Source of the DNA: Bacteroidales bacterium
GTDB taxonomy: Bacteria; Bacteroidota; Bacteroidia; Bacteroidales; Tenuifilaceae
DNA length: 13,621 bases
Assembly (NCBI GenBank): GCA_008933525.1
Contig: WBUV01000039.1
Location: forward strand, 1-13,621
Reading direction: 5' to 3'
Shown here: positions 2,393 to 13,621 of the stretch, piece by piece
Numbering within the stretch: the stretch's first letter is position 1
Layout of the letters: every line of letters begins with the position of its first letter
The notes under the pieces: generated by a model
Database searches by the model: none
What the model saw: the letters and a program-made list of their open reading frames with translations, nothing else
Told to the model about the DNA's origin: nothing
Position numbers and translations under genes: made by a program

Positions 2393-3349
2393 ATGGAAAT
2401 ACTTCGATTGGTAAGGTACAAGAATTTGCTGATAGTTGCAGCAACAATGATTCTTGTCCGATATTTTATTATGCAACCCATTCTTCAAGCTTTTGGTTTT
2501 GAGTTGCAGTTGGGGTTATTGTACTTTGTAATGCTGGTGCTAGCAACGGTATTCATTACTGCTGCAGGGTATGTAATAAACGATTATTTCGATACTCGAA
2601 CCGATTTGGTCAACCGTCCGCAAACAGTTGTGGTTGGTAAATCGGTTAGTCGCCGAATGGCTATTGCTATTCATATGGTTCTTAGCGTACTGGGTATTTT
2701 TTTGGGATTGCTTGTTGCTATTAAAATTGGGCGACCAATTTTTTCTTTACTTTTTGTTCTAGCAACTGGCGTGCTTTGGTTTTACTCAACTACCTACAAG
2801 CGTCAGTTAATTATCGGAAATCTTGTTGTTGCTACGCTTACAGGGATTGTTCCTTTAATTCCGTTGATTTTCGAGTACCCATTATTTGAAACATACTGGG
2901 AGGTCATTGCAATTTATCAGCTTAAACTTCACGTAATGGTTTACTGGGTTGGTGGTTATGCACTATTTGCTTTCCTTTTGACCTTTGTTCGTGAAATTAT
3001 TAAGGATATTGAAGATTTTGAGGGCGATACAGTGTATGGTCGTAATACTATTCCCGTGCATTTTGGAATAAAGGCATCAAAAATTATTGCATCATCGCTT
3101 TTAATGGTAACTCTTATTGTGTTGATTTTCCTATTTGCTGGCTATATGAGGTTTTTACCATCGGGCAAATTCGATTACTACACCTTTATATATCTTATTG
3201 TTTTTATATTGCTACCAATATTCGTGCTTTTTATGATGTTGCTTTTGGCACAAAATAAAGCCGATTACCATAAAGCAAGTCGTTTGAATAAGATTATAAT
3301 GCTTTTTGGATTGCTCTATACTTTTGTTTTTCGTTGGTTGATACTTTAA
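2393..3349 (+). CDS. UbiA-family membrane prenyltransferase
   Basis: This 318-aa integral membrane protein has roughly eight to nine hydrophobic segments and both aspartate-rich motifs of the UbiA superfamily. The first is NDYFDTRTD (63-71); the second is DIEDFEGD (205-212). These bind Mg2+ and the prenyl diphosphate. The enzyme should transfer a prenyl chain to an aromatic or glycerol-phosphate acceptor in the inner membrane. Bacteroidetes homologues are often labelled geranylgeranylglycerol-phosphate geranylgeranyltransferase-like, but the acceptor cannot be read from the sequence. The longer region between helices near 165-185 could help define it. I prefer ATG 2393 to the in-frame TTG 2387. 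The Maf gene starts 4 nt after its stop, so the two are translationally close. Confidence 0.88.
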   Translation: MEILRLVRYKNLLIVAATMILVRYFIMQPILQAFGFELQLGLLYFVMLVLATVFITAAGYVINDYFDTRTDLVNRPQTVVVGKSVSRRMAIAIHMVLSVLGIFLGLLVAIKIGRPIFSLLFVLATGVLWFYSTTYKRQLIIGNLVVATLTGIVPLIPLIFEYPLFETYWEVIAIYQLKLHVMVYWVGGYALFAFLLTFVREIIKDIEDFEGDTVYGRNTIPVHFGIKASKIIASSLLMVTLIVLIFLFAGYMRFLPSGKFDYYTFIYLIVFILLPIFVLFMMLLLAQNKADYHKASRLNKIIMLFGLLYTFVFRWLIL

Positions 3350-3353
3350 GTTG

Positions 3354-3956
3354 ATGTTATTACACAATATAATAAAAGGTAAAAGTTTAATACTCGCATC
3401 CAACTCTCCTCGTAGGCAGCAATTGCTTAAGGGGCTTGATGTTGATTTTGAGATTTGGTCCACCAATCACGAGGATGAATCCTATCCCAATGATTTACCC
3501 GTTGAGCAGGTTCCTACTTACTTGGCCAAGCATAAAGCATCGTTCTTTACCGAACGTTTAAGTAACGACACAATCCTTATTACTTGCGATACCGTTGTGG
3601 TTTGCAATGGTAAGGTGTTGGGAAAACCTGTAGATTTAGCCGATGCAGTTGCAATATTAAAGCAACTTTCGGGAAATAGGCATACTGTAATAACTGGTGT
3701 TTGCTTGTCAACTGCGAACAAATCAAGCTGTTTCAGCTCCTTTACCGATGTGTATTTTAGACATTTAACGGATGAGGAGATAGAGTACTATATTGAACGT
3801 TATAAGCCTTACGACAAGGCTGGGGCCTATGGTATTCAGGAGTGGATTGGATATGTTGCCATTGAGCGCATTGAGGGTTCTTACTTTAATGTAATGGGGT
3901 TGCCTGTTCAAAAATTGCATAATGAGTTACTCAACTTTATAAATAATAATCAATAA
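3354..3956 (+). CDS. maf: Maf family nucleoside triphosphate pyrophosphatase
   Basis: At 200 aa this is normal Maf length. The N-terminal LASNSPRRQQLL (14-25) is the Maf signature phosphate-binding motif. CDTVV (78-82), LGKP (89-92), QLSGNRHTVITGV (104-116) and YDKAGAYGIQ (153-162) are the other conserved blocks, including D79, K91 and the catalytic-region lysine K155. The family hydrolyses (d)NTPs such as dTTP and UTP, or modified pyrimidines, to monophosphates in the cytoplasm, and has been tied to house-cleaning and septum control. Which substrate this member prefers cannot be settled by eye. The start is ATG 3354; an adjacent in-frame TTG at 3351 is less likely. It lies tightly between ubiA-like and the peptidase gene (5-bp gap). 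Confidence 0.93.
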   Translation: MLLHNIIKGKSLILASNSPRRQQLLKGLDVDFEIWSTNHEDESYPNDLPVEQVPTYLAKHKASFFTERLSNDTILITCDTVVVCNGKVLGKPVDLADAVAILKQLSGNRHTVITGVCLSTANKSSCFSSFTDVYFRHLTDEEIEYYIERYKPYDKAGAYGIQEWIGYVAIERIEGSYFNVMGLPVQKLHNELLNFINNNQ

Positions 3957-3961
3957 TATAT

Positions 3962-6127
3962 ATGATGAGAAAAATTGCAATAACAATTCTGCTTTCGGTA
4001 TTTGTTGTATTTAACAACATTGCCGATGAGGGTATGTGGTTGCCAATGCTAGTTGGCAAAAACATAAACGAGATGCAAAAGATGGGCTTCAAATTAACGG
4101 CTGATGATATTTACAGCGTTAACCAATCCAGCCTTAAGGATGCCATTGTGCAGTTCGGTGGAGGTTGTACCGCAGAGTTAATCTCAGCTGAGGGCTTGAT
4201 AATTACAAATCACCACTGTGGATTTTCAAGAATTCAGGCACATTCGTCTGTTGAGCACGATTACCTATCCAATGGTTTTTGGGCCATGAGCAAACAGGAG
4301 GAACTTCCAAATCCTGGGCTTACTGTTCGTTTTTTGGTGCGTATGGAGGATGTTTCGGCTCAGGTTCTAATGGGAGTTACAAAAGAGATGACAGAGGCTG
4401 AACGTCGTAAAACTATTTCTGCTAGCATTAAGGAAATTTCAACAAAAGTAGAAGCCGAGGGAGTTGGATATGTGGCAGTTATTCGTCCAATGTACTATGG
4501 TAATGAGTTTTACCTTTTCCTTTACGAGGAGTTTAGCGATGTTCGCTTAGTTGGTGCTCCACCTGAGTCAATTGGCAAGTTTGGTGGCGATACCGATAAC
4601 TGGGTTTGGCCACGTCATACTGGCGATTTTTCGCTTTTCCGTATCTATGCCAATAAGGATAACAAGCCAGCGGCTTATTCGCCAGAGAACTTACCCTACA
4701 AACCTAAACGTTATCTGCCTATCTCTATGAAAGGCATAAAGGAGGACGATTTTACATTGGTTTACGGTTTTCCTGGTCGTACCCAACAGTTCCTTACTTC
4801 GCATGCTGTTGAGTTATTGGTTAATCAAACCAATCCCCATAGAATTAATTTAAGGAATACACGCCTATCAATCTTCAGCCACTATATGGATGCCAACGAT
4901 ACAATCCGTATTCAGTACGCTAGTAAACATGCAACCGTTGCCAATGCATGGAAGAAATGGATAGGGGAGACCATTGGATTGCGCAGGCTCGATGCTGTTT
5001 CTAAAAAGCGTGAGTTGGAGAATATGTTTACCGCTTGGACAAGCAAATCTCCCGAATTACAAAAACAGTATGGAAGTTTATTGCCTACATTTAAGAGGCT
5101 TTACGATGAGTTAACTCCCCTTTCTTTGATTTCCGATTACCGTTCGGAGGCAGTGTATGCCGTTGAACTTGTAAATTTCGCATCGCGTTTCGATAGAGTT
5201 ATTGCCGAGGCTGTTAAGCCCCAGCGCGATGTTGAGAAGTTTGAGAATGCTAAGAATAACCTTGTTCGGTATGCGCGGGGCTTCTATAAAGATTTTGAAG
5301 TGAATGTTGATGTTGAGGTTTTTGCAGCAATGATGAAATCCTATTACGAGCAGGTTCCATCTAATTACCATCCTGCATTTTTGAGCAAACTTTACCAAAA
5401 TTATCAAGGAAATTGGATGCAAATGGCTGGCAACCTTTACAGTCAGACCATATTCTCCGACAGCATTAGGGTATTTACCCTTCTAAATGAGATTGACAGT
5501 GTTAACGCTCGCCATTTTCAGTCCGATAATATTTATAATGTATATGCACAATTTGAGTTGCTATATAAAGATAAGGTTGAGGCTCGTTTAACTGAAATAA
5601 ACGATAGTTTGGATATTCTTTACAGAACTTTTGTTGATGGATTGATGAAGATGCAACCCGACAAGCGTTTCTTCCCCGATGCTAACTCTACCTTACGCTT
5701 TACTTACGGTAAAGTTCAAGGGTTTGAGCCAAAGGATGGTGTAGTTTACAACTACTACACAACCATTGATGGTATTATTGAGAAATCAACCCAAACTAAC
5801 GTGCCCGACTATGTTCCACCTAAAAAATTAATTGAACTTTACGAGAAGAAGGATTTTGGACAGTATGCAGTTAATGGAACCGTTCCAGTTGCATTTATTG
5901 GAACCAACCATACAACAGGGGGCAATTCGGGAAGCCCTGTAATTGATTCCAATGGCTACTTAATTGGCATTAACTTCGACCGTTGCTGGGAAAGCACAAT
6001 GAGCGATGTTATGTTCGACCCCAATTACTGTCGCAACATTGCCCTTGATATTCGATATACACTATTTGTTATTGATAAGTTCGCTGGTGCAGGACATTTG
6101 TTAAAGGAGATGAACATAGTTTACTAG
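3962..6127 (+). CDS. dpp11: Secreted S46 family dipeptidyl-peptidase, DPP11 type (Asp/Glu-specific)
   Basis: This 721-aa serine exopeptidase begins with a signal peptide (residues 1 to about 21, likely cut after NNIA before DEGMW), so it acts in the periplasm. Catalytic elements are visible: the histidine in NHHCGF (H85), the aspartate in GGDTDNW (D210 or D212) and the serine in GGNSGSP (S656). S46 enzymes remove dipeptides from peptide N-termini, supplying amino acids to asaccharolytic or peptide-using Bacteroidetes. Eighteen residues after the catalytic serine, in NFDRCWE, lies R674. In Porphyromonas DPP11 the equivalent Arg673 sets specificity for acidic P1 residues, while DPP7 has Gly there, so I assign DPP11. 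The start is ATG 3962 (a second ATG follows immediately). A terminator follows at 6160. Confidence 0.92.
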   Translation: MMRKIAITILLSVFVVFNNIADEGMWLPMLVGKNINEMQKMGFKLTADDIYSVNQSSLKDAIVQFGGGCTAELISAEGLIITNHHCGFSRIQAHSSVEHDYLSNGFWAMSKQEELPNPGLTVRFLVRMEDVSAQVLMGVTKEMTEAERRKTISASIKEISTKVEAEGVGYVAVIRPMYYGNEFYLFLYEEFSDVRLVGAPPESIGKFGGDTDNWVWPRHTGDFSLFRIYANKDNKPAAYSPENLPYKPKRYLPISMKGIKEDDFTLVYGFPGRTQQFLTSHAVELLVNQTNPHRINLRNTRLSIFSHYMDANDTIRIQYASKHATVANAWKKWIGETIGLRRLDAVSKKRELENMFTAWTSKSPELQKQYGSLLPTFKRLYDELTPLSLISDYRSEAVYAVELVNFASRFDRVIAEAVKPQRDVEKFENAKNNLVRYARGFYKDFEVNVDVEVFAAMMKSYYEQVPSNYHPAFLSKLYQNYQGNWMQMAGNLYSQTIFSDSIRVFTLLNEIDSVNARHFQSDNIYNVYAQFELLYKDKVEARLTEINDSLDILYRTFVDGLMKMQPDKRFFPDANSTLRFTYGKVQGFEPKDGVVYNYYTTIDGIIEKSTQTNVPDYVPPKKLIELYEKKDFGQYAVNGTVPVAFIGTNHTTGGNSGSPVIDSNGYLIGINFDRCWESTMSDVMFDPNYCRNIALDIRYTLFVIDKFAGAGHLLKEMNIVY

Positions 6128-6413: not shown

Positions 6414-6429
6414 TGTTAATAAAATAACA
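6414..6429. promoter_or_regulatory. Operator-like palindrome TGTTA-N6-TAACA, copy 1
   Basis: TGTTA ATAAAA TAACA. With flanks it reads TTGTTAATAAAATAACAG (6413-6430), matching the copy upstream of the 10208 gene at 17 of 18 positions. It resembles the Rex consensus TTGTTAA-N4-TTAACAA and also the TGTGA-N6-TCACA layout of CRP/FNR proteins. A further TGTTA half-site lies at 6396-6400. Confidence 0.6.
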
Positions 6430-6430
6430 G

Positions 6431-6446
6431 TGTTACAAAAATAACA
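6431..6446. promoter_or_regulatory. Operator-like palindrome TGTTA-N6-TAACA, copy 2
   Basis: TGTTA CAAAAA TAACA follows copy 1 after a single G, so the centres are 17 bp apart. It ends 26 bp before the hydC start codon. Bound protein here would cover the leader, fitting repression. Confidence 0.6.
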
Positions 6447-6472: not shown

Positions 6473-6937
6473 ATGACGGAGACTAAAGAACTAGTAAAGA
6501 AACTTGCTGACAAGTATGGCAGGGCTAGAGAGAGTTTAATGCCAATTCTTCAGGGTGTAATTGAGGAGGAACGCTTTGTTTCAAGCGAAGCTATGACTGA
6601 GATAGCTCGCGAACTCGATATTGCTTCTGCAGAGGTGTACGGAACCGCAACGTTCTATTCTTTCTTGGATACGCAACCCCGAGGCAAGTATGTTATAAGG
6701 GTTTGTAAAACCATTACTTGCGATATGCACGGCAAGAAAAAGGTTATTGAGAAGATTGAGGATTTGCTTAAGATTAAATTAGGGGAAACCACTCAGGACA
6801 AAAAATTTACTTTGCTGACAACAAACTGCTTGGGTTGGTGTCATCAAGGCCCAGTGATGTTGATAAACTCAACACCTTATCCTAGTCTCGACGAGAATAA
6901 GGTTACTGAAATTATTATGGACTATATGAGCAAATAG
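6473..6937 (+). CDS. hydC: [FeFe]-hydrogenase subunit HydC (NuoE-like, thioredoxin-fold [2Fe-2S])
   Basis: This 154-aa protein matches the 24-kDa NuoE/HydC family: a helical N-terminal domain (about 1-65), then a thioredoxin-like ferredoxin domain. The four [2Fe-2S] cysteines are C78 and C83 (VCKTITC) and C119 and C123 (NCLGWC). The family passes electrons between the flavin subunit and the rest of the complex. It is the first gene of hydC-hydB-hydA, the usual order for trimeric NAD-linked hydrogenases; hydB's ATG follows 15 nt after its stop. The two TGTTA-N6-TAACA palindromes upstream suggest redox control. Confusion with a complex I NuoE or a formate dehydrogenase subunit is unlikely given the HydA gene in the same operon. 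Confidence 0.95.
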   Translation: MTETKELVKKLADKYGRARESLMPILQGVIEEERFVSSEAMTEIARELDIASAEVYGTATFYSFLDTQPRGKYVIRVCKTITCDMHGKKKVIEKIEDLLKIKLGETTQDKKFTLLTTNCLGWCHQGPVMLINSTPYPSLDENKVTEIIMDYMSK

Positions 6938-6945: not shown

Positions 6946-6952
6946 TTTGAAA

Positions 6953-8113
6953 ATGGAAAATTTAAAAAGAGTCGATTTAATATTTGGTGCTTATACCAAT
7001 GAGAAGTATAAAGTGCTAGAGAGTACCCTTAAGAAATCAAGTGAGCAAATTATCACCGAAATGATTAACTCTGGCCTTAAAGGTCGCGGTGGTGCAGGTT
7101 TTCTTACAGGTTTAAAATGGAAATTTACTGCTCAAGAATCCGAGCCTACTAAGTATGTTGTTTGTAACGCCGATGAGGGCGAACCAGGTACTTTTAAAGA
7201 CCGTGAAATTCTAACTAAAGTTCCCCGAAAAGTATTCAGCGGTATGGCCATTTGCGGAAAAGCAATCGGCGCTAAAAAGGGTTATATGTATTTGAGAGGA
7301 GAGTACCAATACCTTCTGCCCGATTTGATGGCTGAACTGGACGTTTATCACGAGCACGCTAAGCGCTTTAATCACGATTTCACAATTGAAATTAGAATGG
7401 GTAGCGGCGCATATATTTGCGGTGAGGAATCTGCATTATTCGAGTCAATTGAAGGAAAACGTGGTGAACCACGTAATAAGCCTCCTTATCCAACCGTTTC
7501 GGGTGTTTTCAGTAAGCCTACTGTGATTAACAACGTGGAAACGTTTGTTAATGCTGTTATGATTATGAAGTACGGTGCAGAGGAGTTCAAAAAGTTAGGA
7601 ACTTCTGACTCTCGTGGTTCAAAAGTGTTCAGTATTTCGGGCGATACTCCTAAAGCGGGCATTCATGAGTTGGAACTAGGTATGACCCTAGCCGATTTTG
7701 TGGCGGAGTTTGGTGATGGCGATACCAAAGCCGTTCAGGTAGGAGGTGCTTCTGGTTTCTGCGTACCCCGTAAGAAATTTAACGAAACAATCATAGGTTT
7801 TGAAGGTGTTCCTACTGGAGGATCAATGATGCTTTTCAATAGTTCACGCTCAATGTACAATGTGCTTCACAACTATCTTGATTTCTTTGAGGAGGAGTCT
7901 TGTGGTCAATGTACCCCTTGCCGGGTTGGCTGTCAGCAGCTACTTAAGGGTATTCACGCTGTTAAGAAGGGTGAGAAACCTTCAAGCTACCTAAATCAAC
8001 TACTACAGCTTTCCGATACTATGAAAATTACAGCAAAGTGTGGTTTAGGCCAGTCTGTGGCTAACTCTTTCTCATCAATAGTTGAAAACTTCAAAGAGGA
8101 GATGATTTACTAA
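6953..8113 (+). CDS. hydB: [FeFe]-hydrogenase subunit HydB (NuoF-like NADH/FMN subunit), compact form
   Basis: The 386-aa protein is the NuoF core alone. Conserved pieces are GRGGAGF (44-50) with GLKW (53-56), CNADEGEPGTFKDR (71-84) and GSGAYICGEE (150-159) for FMN and NADH binding, then ESCGQCTPCR (315-324), giving C317, C320 and C323, and C363 in KCGLGQ for the [4Fe-4S] cluster. It should oxidise NADH or reduce NAD+ and exchange electrons with HydC and HydA. Bifurcating HydB proteins such as that of Thermotoga maritima are over 600 aa, with an N-terminal [2Fe-2S] thioredoxin-like domain and C-terminal ferredoxin-like clusters; both are missing here without any sign of a frameshift, since the next gene starts 42 bp on. 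The complex may therefore be smaller in its cofactor set. Confidence 0.95.
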   Translation: MENLKRVDLIFGAYTNEKYKVLESTLKKSSEQIITEMINSGLKGRGGAGFLTGLKWKFTAQESEPTKYVVCNADEGEPGTFKDREILTKVPRKVFSGMAICGKAIGAKKGYMYLRGEYQYLLPDLMAELDVYHEHAKRFNHDFTIEIRMGSGAYICGEESALFESIEGKRGEPRNKPPYPTVSGVFSKPTVINNVETFVNAVMIMKYGAEEFKKLGTSDSRGSKVFSISGDTPKAGIHELELGMTLADFVAEFGDGDTKAVQVGGASGFCVPRKKFNETIIGFEGVPTGGSMMLFNSSRSMYNVLHNYLDFFEEESCGQCTPCRVGCQQLLKGIHAVKKGEKPSSYLNQLLQLSDTMKITAKCGLGQSVANSFSSIVENFKEEMIY

Positions 8114-8155: not shown

Positions 8156-9940
8156 ATGGCAGAAATAGTAAAAATAAATATTGATGGCATCGCTCTCGAA
8201 GTTACAAAAGGAACATCAATACTCGATGCTGCAAAATCAGTTAATGTAAAGATTCCAACACTTTGTTATCACGAAGATTTGTGCGTTGCAGGAAACTGTC
8301 GTGTTTGTGTTGTTGAGGTTGAAGGCCGGAAAAATCTGGTTGCATCGTGCGCAGCACCAGCAGAACAAGGAATGGTAATTAAAACAACTACTCCAAAGGT
8401 TCGTAGAGCAAGAACTGATATTATATCTCTTTTAGTATCGGAGCACAACACTCAGTGTACTACTTGCTACAGGAGTACTAATTGCGAGTTACAGTCGCTT
8501 GCAGCAGAGTACAATGTCGACTCTGAAAGGTACTTAAGTGTGTTAAAGCCTAATATTCAGGTTGATAAATCATCGTATTCCATTGAGAAAGACGATAGTA
8601 AGTGCGTACGTTGTCAGCGTTGCGTAAGAACTTGCGCCGAGTTACAACACGTAAATGCAATTACAGTAGCACACAAAGGTCGCGATATGAAAATATCAAC
8701 CTTTATGGAGCTGCCAATGAACGAGGTTGTTTGCGTAAACTGCGGCCAGTGCGTTACACACTGTCCTACAGGAGCTTTAACCGAACGACGTTACTACCAC
8801 GAGATTTGGGAAGCAATTGGCGACCCTGATAAGCACGTTGTTATTAACACTGCTCCTTCGGTTCGCGTTGCTCTTGGCGAAATGTTAGGATACCCAGTAG
8901 GTACCCGTGTTACAGGAAAAATGGTTACTGCCCTTAAGAAGATTGGTTTCGACTCAGTTCTTGACACCGACTTTACAGCAGACTTAACTATTATTGAGGA
9001 AGGTCATGAGTTCCTACAGAGGGTAACAAAAGCCCTTAAGCATAAGGAGAAAGTTGCGTTGCCTATGATTACCTCTTGCTCCCCTGGTTGGGTTAAGTTC
9101 ATTGAGCATATGTACCCCGATCATCTTGACCATTTGTCGCCCTGTAAATCGCCTCATCAAATGTTTGGTGCACTAACTAAAACATTCTATGCTCAGAAGA
9201 TTGGTGTTGACCCATCCAAGATTGTCAGCGTAGCTGCAATGCCTTGCGCTGCTAAGAAGTTTGAGGCTAATCGCCCCGAAATGAAATCGAGTGGATATCA
9301 GGATGTGGATGCTGGTTTGACTACCCGCGAAATTGGTCAGATGATAAAGCAATCGGGTTTGGATTTTGTTAATCTGCCTGATTCTAATTACGATAGCTAT
9401 ATGGGCGAGTCGTCTGGTGCAGCTGTAATTTTCGGAGCAACCGGTGGTGTAATGGAAGCTGCTTTACGTACCGTTTATGAGGTTGTAACTGGCCGTGAAG
9501 TTCCTTTCAAGAATCTTGCTATTACTCCAGTTCGTGGCTTAGAGGGTATTAAGGAGGCAACTATTAAGTTGGAGAACGTTGTTCCTGAGTACAGTTTCTT
9601 AGAGGGAGCCGAGGTAAAAGTGGCGATTGCACACGGGTTGAAAAATGCTCGCGTCATTATGGACCAAATTAAGAATGGCACTTCGCCATACCTATTCATT
9701 GAGATTATGGCTTGCCCTGGTGGATGTATTGGTGGAGGTGGACAGCCAATCCCAACTAACGATGAGATTCGTAAGAAAAGGATTGCTGCTATTTACGCTG
9801 AGGACGAAGGTATGCCTATCCGTAAGTCGCACGAGGTTCCTGAAATTAAAAAAATCTACGAGACTTACCTCGAGAAGCCACTTGGACATAAGTCGCACGA
9901 ATTGTTGCACACACACTACAAGAAACGTAATCGCTATTAG
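8156..9940 (+). CDS. hydA: [FeFe]-hydrogenase catalytic subunit HydA
   Basis: The 594-aa subunit makes or oxidises H2. Domains in order: [2Fe-2S] ferredoxin (C37, C48, C51, C65); His-ligated [4Fe-4S] (H97, C101, C104, C110); two [4Fe-4S] clusters (C150, C153, C156, C160 and C193, C196, C199, C203); then the H-cluster domain with TSCSP (306-310), MPCAAKKFE (362-370) and EIMACPGGC (516-524), followed by the small C-terminal domain ending near [10 protein letters not shown]. The proton path seems intact (E282, E285, C308, S328). One oddity is S309, where the canonical TSCCP has the cluster-binding second cysteine. There is no extra C-terminal [2Fe-2S] domain. The start is ATG 8156; a terminator follows. 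The HydEFG maturases are not in the window. Confidence 0.97.
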
Positions 9941-9965: not shown

Positions 9966-9988
9966 AAGGGGCCTAGTGCCCCTTTTTT
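9966..9988 (+). terminator. Rho-independent terminator after hydA
   Basis: AAGGGGC (9966-9972) pairs perfectly with GCCCCTT (9978-9984) around a 5-nt loop, followed by a T-run to 9988. It ends the hydCBA transcript, so the sensor-like operon downstream needs its own promoter. Confidence 0.9.
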
Positions 9989-10091: not shown

Positions 10092-10107
10092 TGTTAGTAA
10101 AATAACA
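10092..10107. promoter_or_regulatory. Operator-like palindrome TGTTA-N6-TAACA, copy 3
   Basis: TGTTA GTAAAA TAACA, with the same flanks as copy 1 (TTG...CAG, 10091-10108). It is centred about 68 bp upstream of the predicted transcription start. A 9-bp AT-rich inverted repeat (ATAAAATTT / AAATTTTAT, 10111-10131) lies between copies 3 and 4. Confidence 0.6.
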
Positions 10108-10133: not shown

Positions 10134-10149
10134 TGTTATATGAATAACA
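10134..10149. promoter_or_regulatory. Operator-like palindrome TGTTA-N6-TAACA, copy 4
   Basis: TGTTA TATGAA TAACA, centred 42 bp (about four helical turns) from copy 3. It ends 5 bp before the predicted -7 box and covers the expected -33 region, a repressing position. Confidence 0.6.
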
Positions 10150-10207: not shown

Positions 10208-10552
10208 ATGAAGTTAAAAGAACTTGTAGAGTACATAGGCGGAAGTGTTGTATGCTGTGAAGAGTGCTTGGATAGAGAGGTTGAGTGTGCGTTCGCTTCG
10301 GACTTGATGAGCGATGTGCTTACAGTTAAGAGCGATAAATTGCTCTTAATAACAGGCCTTGCCAATATTCAAGCAGTACGCACAGCTGAAATGTCCGACT
10401 TGCAAGCTATTGTATTCGTTCGCAATAAGCGAGTAAGTGAGGATATGATTAGGTTGGCTCAGGAAAATTGCATAGTTTTGATAGAGTATCCTGGCACCAT
10501 GTTTCGCGTGTCGGGTTTGCTTTATAGTTTAGGGGTTAAGCCTGTTTACTAG
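10208..10552 (+). CDS. DRTGG-domain protein 1
   Basis: The 114-aa protein is a single DRTGG-type domain: a short N-terminal helix-strand region, the conserved SDLMSDVL block (31-38), then TGLANIQAVRTAEM and a Rossmann-like C-terminal half. DRTGG domains occur in phosphotransacetylase N-termini and beside CBS domains, and are thought to bind nucleotides; no reaction is established for stand-alone forms. It carries four cysteines near the start (C16, C17, C20, C27) that the second DRTGG protein of this operon lacks. It is the first gene of the operon and ends 5 nt before the ATPase gene. In Firmicutes similar proteins sit beside [FeFe]-hydrogenase genes, which supports a regulatory or sensory role. 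Confidence 0.85.
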   Translation: MKLKELVEYIGGSVVCCEECLDREVECAFASDLMSDVLTVKSDKLLLITGLANIQAVRTAEMSDLQAIVFVRNKRVSEDMIRLAQENCIVLIEYPGTMFRVSGLLYSLGVKPVY

Positions 10553-10557
10553 TAGTT

Positions 10558-10989
10558 ATGCATTTCGAGTTTAAAGTACAGGGTGGCGATTTCGTAAGAG
10601 CTGGAAACGCATCGAGTCAGGTTAAGAAGATTTTAAAGCAGCTTAACGTGGACTCTAGCGTTATCAAGAGGATTGTTGTGGCTCTCTACGAAGGGGAGGT
10701 AAACATTGCCGCGCATGCTTTTAATGGAGTAATTTATGTTGATATCGATACTGAAAGGATAATAATTAAGTTAGACGATAATGGTCCCGGAATTCCTGAT
10801 ATAAACCTGGCTATGCAACCTGGCTATTCAACAGCATCGCCAATAGTAAGAGAAATGGGATTTGGAGCAGGAATGGGACTTCCGAATATCAAGGATAATT
10901 CCGATGATTTTAAGATAACAAGTGAGGTAGGAAAGGGTACTTGTCTTGAAATTCTTGTAAATTTAAAGGTAAATCAGGAAGGAGTTTAG
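10558..10989 (+). CDS. RsbT/RsbW-like GHKL ATPase (anti-sigma factor or switch kinase family)
   Basis: This 143-aa protein is a stand-alone histidine-kinase-type ATPase domain. The N-box reads E45-xxx-N49-xxx-H53-A54, the G1 box is DDNGPGIPD (73-81), and the G2-like loop is GFGAGMGLPNI (101-111), followed by the GKGT segment (125-128). This pattern matches anti-sigma serine kinases and RsbT switch proteins, which phosphorylate partner proteins or bind a sigma factor in an ATP-dependent manner. There is no sensor domain, dimerisation histidine or membrane segment, so input must come from partners, plausibly the neighbouring proteins. No anti-anti-sigma (STAS) or sigma gene is visible here. It lies between a DRTGG gene and the hydrogenase-like gene with gaps of 5 and 2 nt. 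Confidence 0.88.
   Translation: MHFEFKVQGGDFVRAGNASSQVKKILKQLNVDSSVIKRIVVALYEGEVNIAAHAFNGVIYVDIDTERIIIKLDDNGPGIPDINLAMQPGYSTASPIVREMGFGAGMGLPNIKDNSDDFKITSEVGKGTCLEILVNLKVNQEGV
10976..10984 (+). promoter_or_regulatory. Shine-Dalgarno site that supports the GTG start of the hydrogenase-like gene
   Basis: AGGAAGGAG ends 7 nt before GTG 10992 and lies inside the end of the ATPase gene. It supports GTG as the start; there is no ATG near the beginning of the frame before the first cluster motif. Confidence 0.7.
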
Positions 10990-10991
10990 CT

Positions 10992-12365
10992 GTGGAAAAT
11001 GCTAGTTTTCATCACGCACTAAAAATTCGTACCGATGTTTGTATCGGATGCGCTCACTGTATGAGGGCGTGTCCCACTGAGGCGCTAAGAGTGAGTGGCG
11101 GAAAGGCTCATTTGCATAGCGATAGGTGTATTGATTGTGGCGAGTGCTACAGGGTTTGCCCAACCGGAGCAATAATTGTGGAGCAGGACGATTTCCAGAA
11201 CATATTTAACTTTAAGCATCGTGTAGCATTGATTCCTTCCGTTTTATTGGGGCAATATCCTGATGATGTTACACCCGGAATGGTTTTTCAGGCATTGCAG
11301 AATATCGGGTTTACTGAGATTTATGAGGTGGAAGATTCCGTTGAGTATCTTATTCCTCAAATTAATGATTACATAGGAAAAAATCAGAATAAAAAGCCAA
11401 TAGTATCATCGTTTTGTCCTGCCATTGTTCGACTTGTTCAGGTTAAGTTCCCTTGGTTAGTAGGCAATATAATGCTTTTACGCCCACCGCTGGACTTAAC
11501 TTCATCATATATTCGTGGAAAATACAAAGAACAAGGCTTTAGCGAATTGGAGGTTGGTATTTTTTATGTAACACCTTGTGCCGCCAAAATAGCTGCAATA
11601 AAAAGCCCCGTTGGTGAGGATAAGTCGGAGATTACAGGCGTTATTAACATGGATTTAATTTACAATCGTACATTACACGAGATTAAGAAGAAGGTTGTAA
11701 GTAAAGACCAGGATACGTTTAATTCCCAGTTAACTCCACGAAGCATTACTTGGGCTTTGACTAATGGTGAGGCATCGCACATTAATGGCCGTTGTATGGC
11801 CATAGATGGTATTCATAATGTAATGGAATTCCTCGATAAGATTGAGAACGATGAAGTTGCTGGTGTTGATTTCTTGGAACTTAGGTCTTGCGACGAGAGC
11901 TGTGCAGGAGGAATTCTGGCCGCAAGTAATCGCTTTTTAACCGCGGAGTTACTTAGAAAAAGGGCTAAAGCCCTTGCCGAATTTAATCATGGAGAGGTTA
12001 ATCAGTCAAAATTATTACAATACCAGGAGTTTTTAGTTGGTAGGATTGATTTGAGTAGAGTAGAACCTCGCTCTATGGTAAAACTCGACGAGGATATGGC
12101 CAAGGCGATGAAGAAGATGGAGCGCGTAAATCGAATTATGTGTTACTTGCCTGGTATTGATTGTGGGGTGTGTGGAGCGCCGTCGTGTCTGGCTTTGGCC
12201 GAGGATATTGTAAAGGGCGAGGGGGCAATTTCTCATTGTGTATTCCTGCAAAAGGTAATGGAACAGAGCAAGTTAAACCCTGAGCACTCTTTTAAAATTA
12301 TGAAGAAAATTTGGGGCGATAATCGATGCATGAAGGATTGTGAAAAGCCTAATCAAAATAAATAG
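10992..12365 (+). CDS. HydS-like [FeFe]-hydrogenase homologue, putative H2/redox sensor
   Basis: This 457-aa protein has two N-terminal [4Fe-4S] motifs (C17, C20, C23, C27 and C46, C49, C52, C56), then a degenerate H-cluster domain. The motifs read SSFCP (139-143), TPCAAK (194-199) and LRSCDESC (297-304). All four cysteines that would hold the H-cluster cubane remain (C142, C196, C300, C304), but the proton-transfer cysteine is Phe141 and other active-site residues are replaced. A C-terminal Fes-type [4Fe-4S] domain follows (C391, C394, C399, C416 in GIDCGVCGAPSC), as in RnfB, plus C446 and C450. Group C sensory hydrogenases (HydS) look similar but usually end in a PAS domain, absent here. 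A role in sensing H2 or redox state is inferred from this and from the flanking ATPases; catalysis is unlikely. The start codon is GTG. Confidence 0.88.
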   Translation: MENASFHHALKIRTDVCIGCAHCMRACPTEALRVSGGKAHLHSDRCIDCGECYRVCPTGAIIVEQDDFQNIFNFKHRVALIPSVLLGQYPDDVTPGMVFQALQNIGFTEIYEVEDSVEYLIPQINDYIGKNQNKKPIVSSFCPAIVRLVQVKFPWLVGNIMLLRPPLDLTSSYIRGKYKEQGFSELEVGIFYVTPCAAKIAAIKSPVGEDKSEITGVINMDLIYNRTLHEIKKKVVSKDQDTFNSQLTPRSITWALTNGEASHINGRCMAIDGIHNVMEFLDKIENDEVAGVDFLELRSCDESCAGGILAASNRFLTAELLRKRAKALAEFNHGEVNQSKLLQYQEFLVGRIDLSRVEPRSMVKLDEDMAKAMKKMERVNRIMCYLPGIDCGVCGAPSCLALAEDIVKGEGAISHCVFLQKVMEQSKLNPEHSFKIMKKIWGDNRCMKDCEKPNQNK

Positions 12366-12374
12366 TTTACTTGT

Positions 12375-12710
12375 ATGACAGTTGCAGATATTGTAAAAGC
12401 CTTAGATTTAAGGGTATTTTCAGGAAATGAAGGGTTAAATCAGGAAGTAGTTGGTGGCTACACATCTGATTTGCTGAGCGATGTTATGGGTAATGCCGAT
12501 GCTGGTATGGTTTGGGTTACCTTACAAACACACATCAATGTTATGGCTATTGCTTCGTTAAAAGAATTAGCTGCAATTATTCTTGTAAAGGGTTTAGAGC
12601 CTGAGGTTAATACTCTGCAGCAAAGCAACAGTGAGGGTATTCCAATTCTTGGAACCAATTTACAGGCTTTTGAGATTACTGGTAAACTTTACCAGCTACT
12701 GAATAAGTAA
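12375..12710 (+). CDS. DRTGG-domain protein 2
   Basis: The 111-aa protein is a second single-domain DRTGG protein. Its block TSDLLSDVM (30-38) aligns with the first copy's SDLMSDVL, followed by WVTLQTHINVMAIASL and a C-terminal IPILGT strand-loop. It is clearly a distant paralogue of the 10208 protein: same length and layout, but low overall identity and no cysteines. A nucleotide-binding role is inferred from the family. It lies 9 nt after the hydrogenase-like gene, and its stop TAA shares its last A with the ATG of the PHP gene (TAATG), so translation of the two is probably coupled. Confidence 0.87.
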   Translation: MTVADIVKALDLRVFSGNEGLNQEVVGGYTSDLLSDVMGNADAGMVWVTLQTHINVMAIASLKELAAIILVKGLEPEVNTLQQSNSEGIPILGTNLQAFEITGKLYQLLNK

Positions 12711-13429
12711 TGAACCAATACCGTGCCGATTTGCACATTCACAGTGTCTTGTCTCCCTGTGCTGATTTGGAGATGAGCCCTGTAAATATTGTGAATCGTG
12801 CAAAGGCTTTGGGGCTAGATATTATCGCAATTACCGACCACAACTCGACACTTCATTGCCCGTTAACAGTAGAGCTTGCCTCAAGGGTTGGAATTATGGC
12901 TGTTTATGGCGCCGAGGTTACTACCCGCGAGGAGGTGCACTGTGTATGCTTAGTAGAGGATGAGCCCAAGCGCAAACTTCTACAGCAATTCCTCGAGGAT
13001 AACATTCAACGTGTTCCCAATAATGTTGATATTTTTGGCTATCAGGTGGTTGTGAACGAGCAGGAGGAGATAGTTCAAGAGATTGAATACCTTTTGCACG
13101 GAGCGCTAAACAAGGGCATCAATGAGGTTGAGGCATTTGTGCATAGCATTGGTGGAATTTTTATTCCAGCCCATGCCGATAGGCCCAAATACAGTATTAC
13201 CAGTCAGTTAGGCTTTGTTCCGCCCGATTTAAACTACGATGCCATAGAACTTTCAAAATATACCACAGAGGAAAAGTTTCTTACGTTAAACCCATTCGTT
13301 ACCAAAAAAAGGTTTATCAGAAGTTCAGATGCTCATATGATTGATCAAATAGGGCAGATTTCATCCACTCTAAGTATGGGTAAGCTAACATTTGAGGATT
13401 TAAAAGCATCAATATTTGCTTTGGGTTAA
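12710..13429 (+). CDS. PHP-domain metal-dependent phosphoesterase
   Basis: The 239-aa protein is a PHP (polymerase and histidinol phosphatase) domain enzyme. Metal-binding motifs are DLHIHS (7-12; H9, H11), TDHN (42-45; D43, H44), GAEV (67-70; E69), H77, PAHAD (153-157; H155) and SSDAH (205-209; D207, H209), so all motifs for a trinuclear metal centre are present. Stand-alone members hydrolyse phosphate esters, for example RNase AM/YciV-type 3',5'-nucleotides; the substrate here is unknown. In this operon it could remove a nucleotide signal or a phosphate set by the neighbouring ATPases, which is inference. It overlaps the DRTGG stop by one base and is followed after 36 bp by a second ATPase gene. 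Confidence 0.92.
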   Translation: MNQYRADLHIHSVLSPCADLEMSPVNIVNRAKALGLDIIAITDHNSTLHCPLTVELASRVGIMAVYGAEVTTREEVHCVCLVEDEPKRKLLQQFLEDNIQRVPNNVDIFGYQVVVNEQEEIVQEIEYLLHGALNKGINEVEAFVHSIGGIFIPAHADRPKYSITSQLGFVPPDLNYDAIELSKYTTEEKFLTLNPFVTKKRFIRSSDAHMIDQIGQISSTLSMGKLTFEDLKASIFALG

Positions 13430-13465
13430 TTTTCTCAAAAAGAATCAGCATAAAAGTCTTAAATA

Positions 13466-13621
13466 ATGAAGGACCTATCATTGCATATACTTGATATTGT
13501 GCAAAATTCAGTGGTTGCACAGGCTACTAATATTGAAATAAAAATTGAAGTTGATATAAATCCACCAACTGGATTTAATACCGAATATAAATTGCAATTA
13601 ATGCCGTTTTCTTTTACAACC
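13466..13621 (+). CDS. Second GHKL ATPase, N-terminal fragment cut by the window end
   Basis: Fifty-two residues are visible, from ATG 13466 to the window edge. The segment SLHILDIVQNSVVAQA (5-20) matches the start of small histidine-kinase-like ATPases that accompany hydrogenase-linked DRTGG and PHP genes; D10-xxx-N14 would be the N-box. The G1 and G2 nucleotide-binding boxes lie beyond the window, so activity cannot be judged. It is a different subfamily from the ATPase at 10558, whose N-box has the E-xxx-N-xxx-H form. It is the sixth gene of the operon as seen, and more may follow. Confidence 0.75.
   Translation, partial: MKDLSLHILDIVQNSVVAQATNIEIKIEVDINPPTGFNTEYKLQLMPFSFTT

Follow-up and report, generated by a model that had tools for sequence, protein, structure and literature searches.

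Six closely packed genes at the right end of contig WBUV01000039.1 of a Bacteroidales bacterium (family Tenuifilaceae; assembly GCA_008933525.1) represent a conserved operon-like module that is found from Clostridia to Bacteroidota. This contig (G000:C153) constitutes in its entirety the window analysed here, 13,621 nucleotides (nt) from an assembly of 3.39 Mb in 543 contigs that is 85% complete. The genes encode a small DRTGG protein (DRT1), a GHKL ATPase (ATP1), a hydrogenase-like Fe-S protein (HydS), a second DRTGG protein (DRT2), a PHP phosphoesterase (PHP) and a second ATPase (ATP2). They follow the hydC-hydB-hydA genes of a catalytic trimeric [FeFe]-hydrogenase, with a terminator-like hairpin and approximately 200 nt holding two operator-like palindromes in between. 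An earlier description of the same DNA, made from its letters alone (hereafter the original prediction), had taken these genes for a putative H2- or redox-sensing signalling module with gaps of 5, 2, 9, -1 and 36 nt, and the coordinates of the open reading frames bear out this packing exactly. We propose, with a confidence that falls a little short of even, that the module acts as a post-translational redox switch for electron-bifurcating complexes of the NuoEF type.

The conservation of the module was followed with profiles built from the window, P. distasonis (L008) and Subdoligranulum (L009), and rebuilt once from the matches over all loci. Gene order was read in 169 loci, namely the window, 87 loci from Bacteroidota (84 from Bacteroidales genomes, of which 295 had been drawn evenly, two from other Bacteroidota and one from P. 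distasonis) and 81 clostridial loci. The latter comprise the best 80 of 535 relatives plus the Subdoligranulum locus, a non-random sample made up of Clostridia throughout because the Subdoligranulum protein led the query. Duplicates (L001-L007 and L092-L123, except L100) and the group C loci L010 and L011 were left out of the neighbourhood count. A draw across the whole phylum Bacteroidota gave 3 of 296 genomes and contributed the deep-branching loci L207 and L208 described below.

The order DRT1-ATP1-HydS is kept in 83 of the 87 Bacteroidota and 80 of the 81 clostridial loci. The five core genes occur together in 76/87 and 75/81 loci, respectively (in order in 73/87 and 74/81), and all six lie inside 9.5 kb in 72/87 and 52/81. 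ATP2 directly follows PHP in 70 of the 72 Bacteroidota loci showing it; in Clostridia it adjoins NuoE in 53 of 55 such loci (both read from the gene listing, irrespective of strand) and sits within the catalytic operon (NuoE-ATP2-NuoF...HydA), which either lies downstream of the module or runs divergently from it. Within 9.5 kb of the module, a NuoE, NuoF or HydA-type gene is found in 64/87 Bacteroidota and 57/81 clostridial loci. The maintenance of this gene order in two phyla makes the module more than a chance grouping, so that the original prediction, which had named conserved co-occurrence outside this genome as the point on which it might fail, has survived there.

The link to a catalytic hydrogenase, also part of that prediction, can be seen at the level of whole genomes too. 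At thresholds of E <= 1e-60 for HydS, E <= 1e-80 for group A6 HydA and E <= 1e-40 for HydF, HydS is present in 85 of 295 Bacteroidales genomes. Group A6 HydA accompanies it in 84 of these 85 genomes, against 99 of the 210 genomes without HydS (Fisher 1.3e-20, relatedness ignored), G296 being the sole HydS-bearing genome without it. The maturase HydF shows the same tendency (74/85 against 103/210; Fisher 3.4e-10, again ignoring relatedness). At this threshold, HydF was unmatched in 11 of the 85 HydS-bearing genomes, including the window's own, which does hold HydG. Three genomes of one family (G399, G498 and G582, all 99% complete) carry HydS and HydA, with HydF unmatched at E <= 1e-40.

Natural fusions and split loci suggest that the module consists of two DRTGG-plus-ATPase units, an input half A with HydS and an output half B with PHP. 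In 3 of the 169 loci neighbouring genes are joined in one reading frame, DRT1 with ATP1 in L204 and L206, and PHP with ATP2 in L148. At L176, L179 and L180, DRT2-PHP-ATP2 stands before DRT1-ATP1-HydS as a block, and in six genomes (G426, G296, G414, G511, G442 and G476) DRT1-ATP1-HydS stands alone at its locus, with PHP and ATP2 elsewhere, the search having covered these two genes of half B and not DRT2. The distant PHP and ATP2 share a contig with a catalytic HydA in G426, and lie on two different contigs in G511.

HydS, the central protein of half A, bears, as judged from its sequence, the marks of the published group D (M2e) 'sensory' [FeFe]-hydrogenases. It holds two [4Fe-4S] motifs at the N-terminus, a hydrogenase domain (PF02906, 2.3e-22) and PF04060 at the C-terminus, and no PAS domain appeared in a Pfam scan of the 457-residue protein. 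The four cubane cysteines (C142, C196, C300 and C304) are Cys in every aligned sequence, and those of the C-terminal Cx2Cx4Cx16C motif (C391, C394, C399 and C416) wherever they are aligned. The eight N-terminal cysteines are conserved in the 169 sequences, except for C20, which is non-Cys in four deep-branching loci. Mapping by motif and residue offset to the catalytic hydrogenase CpI and to TamHydS from Thermoanaerobacter mathranii places F141, T194 and R298 of the window protein at CpI C299, M353 and M497. The first position is Phe or Tyr in Bacteroidota and Ala in 81/81 Clostridia; the second is Thr or Ser in all aligned HydS but one (L196, Ala); the third is Arg in 81 of 82 aligned Bacteroidota, the window included, and Asn in 76/81 clostridial sequences. 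TamHydS has Ala, Ser and Leu at these positions, with E252 as the proposed relay (PMC11803613). E260 of the window protein lies near the offset of this Glu, which is kept in 163 of the 164 aligned HydS outside the deep clade (the other has Ala; one gap was set aside) and in 0 of 4 inside it.

A quick 45-row tree separates group C from a single group that unites the Clostridia and the four deep loci with the clade of the window, with a support of 100 in the Shimodaira-Hasegawa-like approximate likelihood ratio test (SH-aLRT); the outgroup of this tree does not fall on one side of a branch, and its rows hold no TamHydS sequence. Among the best 60 of 109 PDB relatives of HydS there are hydrogenases, ferredoxin-type and Rnf proteins and none named group D, and the best 120 of 7995 matches to a clostridial HydS are mostly unnamed. 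The named relatives nearest to the window protein are mainly Tenuifilaceae, Bacteroidales. The L1 motif reads T-S-C-S-P in the catalytic HydA and S-S-F-C-P in HydS and, because its Cys is offset by one residue, simple alignment does not tell which Cys ligates the cubane. The loci L141, L172, L173 and L181 each carry, close to the group D-type module, a second HydS that belongs to the group C branch, so that both sensor types coexist there; at L172 the group C protein has a SpoIIE-type phosphatase (by eye) beside it.

DRT1 and DRT2 score 24.5 and 23.6 bits against the Pfam DRTGG family, slightly below the cut-off of 25.2. Their AlphaFold models, with a mean predicted local distance difference test score (pLDDT) of 92.2 and 98.1, match solved DRTGG domains in Foldseek (2IOJ, TM-score 0.85 and 0.86 on the query), with 3L2B and HPr kinase/phosphatase as further DRTGG matches. 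A STAS-like fold, considered for both proteins, is not supported by this search, which matches DRTGG folds instead. In DRT1 (n=164), D32, S35 and L38 are conserved in 100% of the sequences, M34 and D36 in 99%, and S31 and V37 in 98%; in DRT2 (n=157), D32, S35 and N55 each reach 100%. The block 31-40 is the least confident of the DRT1 model (pLDDT 71), and residues 34-40 are helical in that of DRT2. A conserved Ser/Asp loop of this kind is expected of a switch or ligand site, without being proof of one.

The original prediction had described ATP1 as RsbT-like. The ATPase class holds; the nearest relative, however, is SpoIIAB and not RsbT (NCBIfam 1.6e-14, below the curated cut-off; family profile against PDB 1TIL, 7.6e-13), and by similarity alone the protein falls among the GHKL serine kinases and anti-sigma factors. 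Among 168 sequences, the Glu and Asn of what we take to be the N-box are kept in 99%, and the glycines of the presumed G1 and G2 boxes in 100%. ATP2 runs over the contig end and is reduced to 52 codons because the window is the whole contig. This fragment gives an E-value of 0.0026 in the Pfam scan; the family, complete in the relatives, matches histidine-kinase ATPase domains (3D36, 3.4e-16). PHP has a Pfam match of 6.1e-10, and nine of its His, Asp and Glu positions are conserved in 98-100% of 153 sequences, presumably the metal-ligand pattern of PHP enzymes.

At four deep-branching loci, the module or its HydS half stands beside NuoE/NuoF complexes other than [FeFe]-hydrogenases. At L207 and L208 (G172 and G180, both 99% complete), the six genes are followed by NuoE, NuoF, a [2Fe-2S]-HdrA fusion, MvhD and a [NiFe]-type small subunit, the last two supported in L207 by PF02662 (3.5e-54) and PF01058 (2.5e-26), and the small subunit of L208 assigned by eye. 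An HdrA N-terminal-like half lies upstream in both, and L208 also has HdrB/HdrC-like genes (by eye). HydG was not found in these two genomes at E <= 1e-20, in a search that was for this maturase rather than for HydE or HydF and that found it in the four other genomes included. At L204 and L206, the genes after HydS encode NuoE, NuoF and a protein of the NuoG/molybdopterin type that lacks an H-cluster domain, with NfnA/GltD-like proteins in addition at L204. The H-cluster could be made in the genomes of L204 and L206, since they have HydG, HydF and HydA elsewhere. All four loci keep DRT1, ATP1, HydS and a DRT2. Their HydS proteins retain the cubane and C-terminal cysteines. The relay position is occupied by Gln, Leu or Val, and C20 is replaced by His (two), Asp (one) or Arg (one), so that one of the N-terminal clusters may be missing or may use a ligand other than Cys.

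NuoE/NuoF is the common partner of all versions of the module with a neighbouring enzyme. The deep loci, in four genomes, are the strongest hint that the bifurcation electron pool is read rather than H2 as such. Because the module adjoins NuoEF-Hdr-Mvh in two HydG-negative genomes, and the HydS half adjoins a NuoEF/molybdopterin-type cluster in two more, the common function is no more likely to be H2 sensing than Fe-S or ferredoxin redox sensing. The H2 sensing of the original prediction may therefore hold for the window's clade, but must be qualified as a function of the whole family. An extension of this idea, which is possible although we would rather bet against it, is that the group D 'sensory hydrogenases' are not H2 sensors in origin. 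They would belong to a family of Fe-S redox sensors that, together with DRTGG/GHKL pairs and often PHP, control any NuoEF-based bifurcating complex (HydABC, Hdr-Mvh or the NuoG/Nfn type), with H2 binding confined to some branches and the deep branch reporting the ferredoxin state alone.

The module and the hydrogenase operon of the window share the palindrome TGTTA-N6-TAACA, as the original prediction had held when it spoke of shared operators. Allowing up to one mismatch, the window holds exactly four matches, all perfect and split evenly between the regions upstream of hydC and of the module, against 0.95 expected, and 2 of 200 shuffles reach four. Upstream of DRT1, the palindrome is perfect in 29 of 84 Bacteroidota loci (0.05 expected) and present with at most one mismatch in 44 of 84 (2.2 expected); the clostridial figure is 9/79 (2.5 expected). 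It precedes NuoE in 7/60 Bacteroidota (0.9 expected) and 14/54 clostridial loci (1.5 expected), and the inner module genes in no more than 4 loci per set; the shuffles across loci preserve base composition only. Seven of the 16 perfect sites of the genome lie at module or hydrogenase operons (four in the window, one on contig C146 and two on C445), with a binomial probability of 7.9e-21 in a test framed after the sites were seen. Among the others are sites at a ferritin, a rubrerythrin, an HdrC-like Fe-S gene, an acyl-CoA dehydrogenase locus and a CRP/FNR-type gene accompanied by a FUR-family gene, as well as some that have no evident link.

A single regulator probably acts at the sites of both operons, and is most likely the NADH/NAD+ sensor Rex, otherwise a CRP/FNR protein. 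The palindrome fits the predicted Rex sites of T. saccharolyticum (PMC5886521). The genome has a rex gene (C333:366-980, by domains), which lies approximately 1.4 kb from hydG (2393-3781) on the same contig (L221). One palindrome (L216, on G000:C284) lies by a CRP/FNR-type regulator, a FUR-family gene, and ferritin-like and peroxiredoxin-like genes, the last two named by eye.

In the proposed mechanism, the six genes would provide a cytosolic post-translational switch for NAD-linked electron-bifurcating complexes that share the NuoE/NuoF (HydC/HydB) core. HydS, with its predicted N-terminal [4Fe-4S] clusters, H-domain cubane and C-terminal [4Fe-4S] cluster, would exchange electrons with the low-potential pool, that is, with reduced ferredoxin and, where the H-cluster is built, with H2. 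Its redox state would alter docking with the input pair, in which ATP1 would be a SpoIIAB-type ATPase or kinase and DRT1 would stand in place of the STAS protein of partner switching, with Ser35 of the S-D-x-M-S-D-V-L motif as the candidate switch residue and possible site of phosphorylation. The signal state would then be handed to the output pair DRT2/ATP2, and PHP could reset the switch as a metal-dependent phosphoesterase. As an outcome, the activity or assembly of the neighbouring complex would be matched to the ferredoxin or H2 load, and transcription of module and hydrogenase would be set separately by the regulator of the palindromes.

Several points weigh against this proposal. The bifurcating complex as the target, the contacts among module proteins, the phosphorylation and the effect on the hydrogenase are what we infer, and an ATPase inside the hydrogenase operon, as with ATP2 in Clostridia and hydE in A. 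woodii (PMC3315566), fits assembly as well as signalling. No NuoE, NuoF or HydA-type gene is in range in 23/87 Bacteroidota and 24/81 clostridial loci, some of them on contigs that end early and others not. P. distasonis is among them, its six genes forming a free-standing operon with nothing NuoE-, NuoF- or HydA-like after ATP2. Half B is dispensable, since PHP was not found in G439 and G363 (the genomes of L204 and L206) at E <= 1e-10 and these genomes give weak matches only to the ATP2 profile (best 4.4e-13 and 1.2e-12), the two loci still carrying a DRT2. Moreover, the genome-wide count of 16 perfect palindromes compares with 15 in a backward control, so that the case for the operators rests on the placement of the sites.

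Three other explanations compete with a redox switch. Classical partner switching, one of the two circuits put forward in the original prediction, would make ATP1 and ATP2 anti-sigma factors or serine kinases, with STAS, PP2C and sigma components elsewhere and HydS setting hydrogenase expression by H2. The proximity of ATP1 to SpoIIAB, with the Glu and Asn of the N-box kept, and the SpoIIE-type phosphatase that adjoins the group C HydS of R. albus and Monoglobus speak for it. Nevertheless, conserved neighbours of the STAS, PP2C or sigma kind did not turn up among the 40 largest neighbour groups over the 169 loci, each judged by eye from a single representative and without a domain search. The largest of these groups covers 13 loci (TruA-like, by eye), the SpoIIE-like one 7, two response-regulator-like ones 6 and 4, and small helix-turn-helix ones 3; and the SpoIIE-like gene of L172 adjoins the second, group C HydS of that locus. 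The operon of P. distasonis stops after ATP2, DRT1 and DRT2 match DRTGG and not STAS folds, and transcription is already served by the module's own shared palindromic sites, all of which makes this explanation improbable. Somewhat less so, yet still unlikely, is a nucleotide-signal circuit where the DRTGG proteins bind a small adenine nucleotide that the ATPases make or bind and PHP hydrolyses. The CBS-DRTGG regulatory region of a pyrophosphatase (3L2B, 3L31) is among the structural relatives of the DRTGG proteins, and those of PHP are nucleases and phosphoesterases (EndoQ, the 7UG9 exoribonuclease and 2YB1). However, the family scans and structure searches gave no match to a nucleotide cyclase or nucleotidyltransferase for either GHKL ATPase, and the D-x-x-S motif of DRT1 and DRT2 falls outside the stretch aligned to the pyrophosphatase DRTGG domain.

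The module could also serve in assembly. HydS would then be a cluster scaffold without catalytic activity, and the GHKL ATPases, together with the DRTGG proteins, would help in loading Fe-S clusters or flavin or in putting together the NuoEF-type complex. This would explain both the position of the clostridial ATP2 inside the catalytic operon and the association of the module with complexes that have very different catalytic subunits. Yet, of the 210 Bacteroidales genomes in which HydS was not found at the threshold used, 99 hold group A6 HydA, so that the enzyme can be present without the module; besides, the near-invariance of the proposed relay Glu outside the deep clade and the H2 turnover of TamHydS at low rates (PMC8163306) speak against a scaffold, and we regard this explanation as having a small chance of being right. 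The redox switch is retained as the working proposal.

Coordinates of the module, the catalytic hydrogenase genes and the associated sites in the window
Feature	Position	Strand	Remarks
Operator-like palindrome TGTTA-N6-TAACA, hydC upstream copy 1	6414..6429	.	perfect match
Operator-like palindrome TGTTA-N6-TAACA, hydC upstream copy 2	6431..6446	.	perfect match
HydC (NuoE type), catalytic trimeric hydrogenase	6473..6937	+	family and domain scans
HydB (NuoF type, short form)	6947..8113	+	family and domain scans
HydA, group A6 catalytic [FeFe]-hydrogenase	8156..9940	+	NF040763, 867.8 bits (curated cut-off 765)
Terminator-like GC hairpin and T run after hydA	9968..9988	+	by eye; hairpin not listed by the pattern scan
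Operator-like palindrome TGTTA-N6-TAACA, module upstream copy 1	10092..10107	.	perfect match
Operator-like palindrome TGTTA-N6-TAACA, module upstream copy 2	10134..10149	.	perfect match
DRT1, small single-domain DRTGG protein, first module gene	10208..10552	+	114 residues; near-invariant motif S31-D-x-M-S35-D-V-L
ATP1, SpoIIAB/RsbW-class GHKL ATPase	10558..10989	+	143 residues; intact presumed N-box (E45, N49), G1 and G2 boxes
HydS, group D-like hydrogenase homologue	10992..12365	+	457 residues; 2x[4Fe-4S] N-terminal, H-domain, C-terminal Cx2Cx4Cx16C
DRT2, second DRTGG protein	12375..12710	+	111 residues; D32, L33, S35, T49 and N55 invariant in a 30-row alignment
PHP phosphoesterase	12710..13429	+	239 residues; conserved H9, H11, D43, H44, E69, H77, H155, D207, H209
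ATP2, histidine-kinase-type ATPase, N-terminal 52 codons	13466..13621	+	operon position as A. woodii hydE; cut by contig end

The right end of the window is probably continued by contig C146 of the same genome (locus L212). It opens with an ATP2-family-like C-terminal half (1-375, by eye; no Pfam match), followed by a palindrome, a [2Fe-2S]-type protein, HydB, HydA and NuoE. Because this order matches the one found downstream of the module in its relatives, the module would lie between two catalytic hydrogenase operons. Further upstream in the window, what we take to be a secreted peptidase-like protein of 721 residues (3962-6127) and a presumably Maf-like protein (3351-3956) recur upstream of the module in 8 and 7 other Bacteroidota loci, respectively.

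The nearness of HydS to kinases and bifurcating hydrogenases has already been published, together with gene tables for group D M2e proteins that show, for six genomes, HydS separated from the bifurcating hydrogenase by four locus tags (for instance, Cthe_0335 and Cthe_0340-0342; PMC3561251). As far as these tables go, four would be the number of genes that DRT2, PHP, NuoE and ATP2 would fill. The original prediction, in stating that related sets occur near [FeFe]-hydrogenases in Firmicutes and that no mechanism had been worked out, agrees with three reports (PMC3561251, PMC8163306 and PMC13104023). Among the titles and abstracts of the open-access literature, within the matches listed, none joins DRTGG or PHP genes to group D hydrogenases, and the sole report with DRTGG alongside a hydrogenase or a PHP domain is an unrelated fitness study of D. 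vulgaris (PMC10102598). HydS is of a known kind. Within the matches listed, this literature did not describe the six-gene system, its division into two halves, its occurrence across Bacteroidota or its pairing with non-[FeFe] complexes.

Recent work on TamHydS holds that the signalling of group D hydrogenases can be clarified only once their interaction partners are known, and reports that the C-terminal cluster is not reduced by 1 atm H2, a change in secondary structure being under discussion as the mechanism (PMC13104023, 2026). The module names five candidate partners for a group D sensory hydrogenase, paired internally by the natural fusions of DRT1 with ATP1 and PHP with ATP2, and also points to a possible switch residue and to the HydBC core as a candidate target. 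All this suggests a dedicated post-translational circuit in control of enzymes of fermentation and H2 balance, for which no characterisation was found in the open-access literature searched.

Compared with known systems, the HydS of the module shares with group D of the TamHydS type the two N-terminal [4Fe-4S] clusters, the four cubane cysteines, the C-terminal Cx2Cx4Cx16C motif and the lack of a PAS domain (PMC8163306, PMC11803613, PMC3561251). It also shares the loss of the relay Cys C299, the Thr/Ser in place of M353 (in all aligned sequences but one), the proposed relay Glu (outside the deep clade), and the presence of a trimeric bifurcating hydrogenase and an ATPase in the neighbourhood. 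Clear differences exist, however: HydS from Bacteroidota has Phe or Tyr instead of Ala at C299 and mostly Arg at M497, DRT1, ATP1, DRT2, PHP and ATP2 emerge here as conserved companions, and the deep clade, beside non-[FeFe] complexes, lacks the proposed relay Glu and one N-terminal cluster Cys. Group C proteins (M2f; HydS from R. albus and TmHydS) resemble HydS in their H-domain, their published C-terminal Fe-S cluster and their proximity to a catalytic hydrogenase, but hold a published PAS domain (PMC8163306), have a SpoIIE-type phosphatase as a neighbour in two loci and form a separate branch of the tree.

With the SpoIIAB/RsbW modules, the system has in common the GHKL family of ATP1 and its conserved N-box. 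Unlike them, it shows no STAS, PP2C or sigma component in the neighbourhoods surveyed, DRTGG proteins occupy the place of STAS, and there are two ATPases. Finally, hydE from A. woodii is an ATPase-like gene, the second in the hyd operon (PMC3315566), and the clostridial ATP2, a histidine-kinase-type ATPase, holds the same operon position, a likeness drawn by position and not by sequence; the ATP2 from Bacteroidota, in contrast, belongs to the HydS operon.

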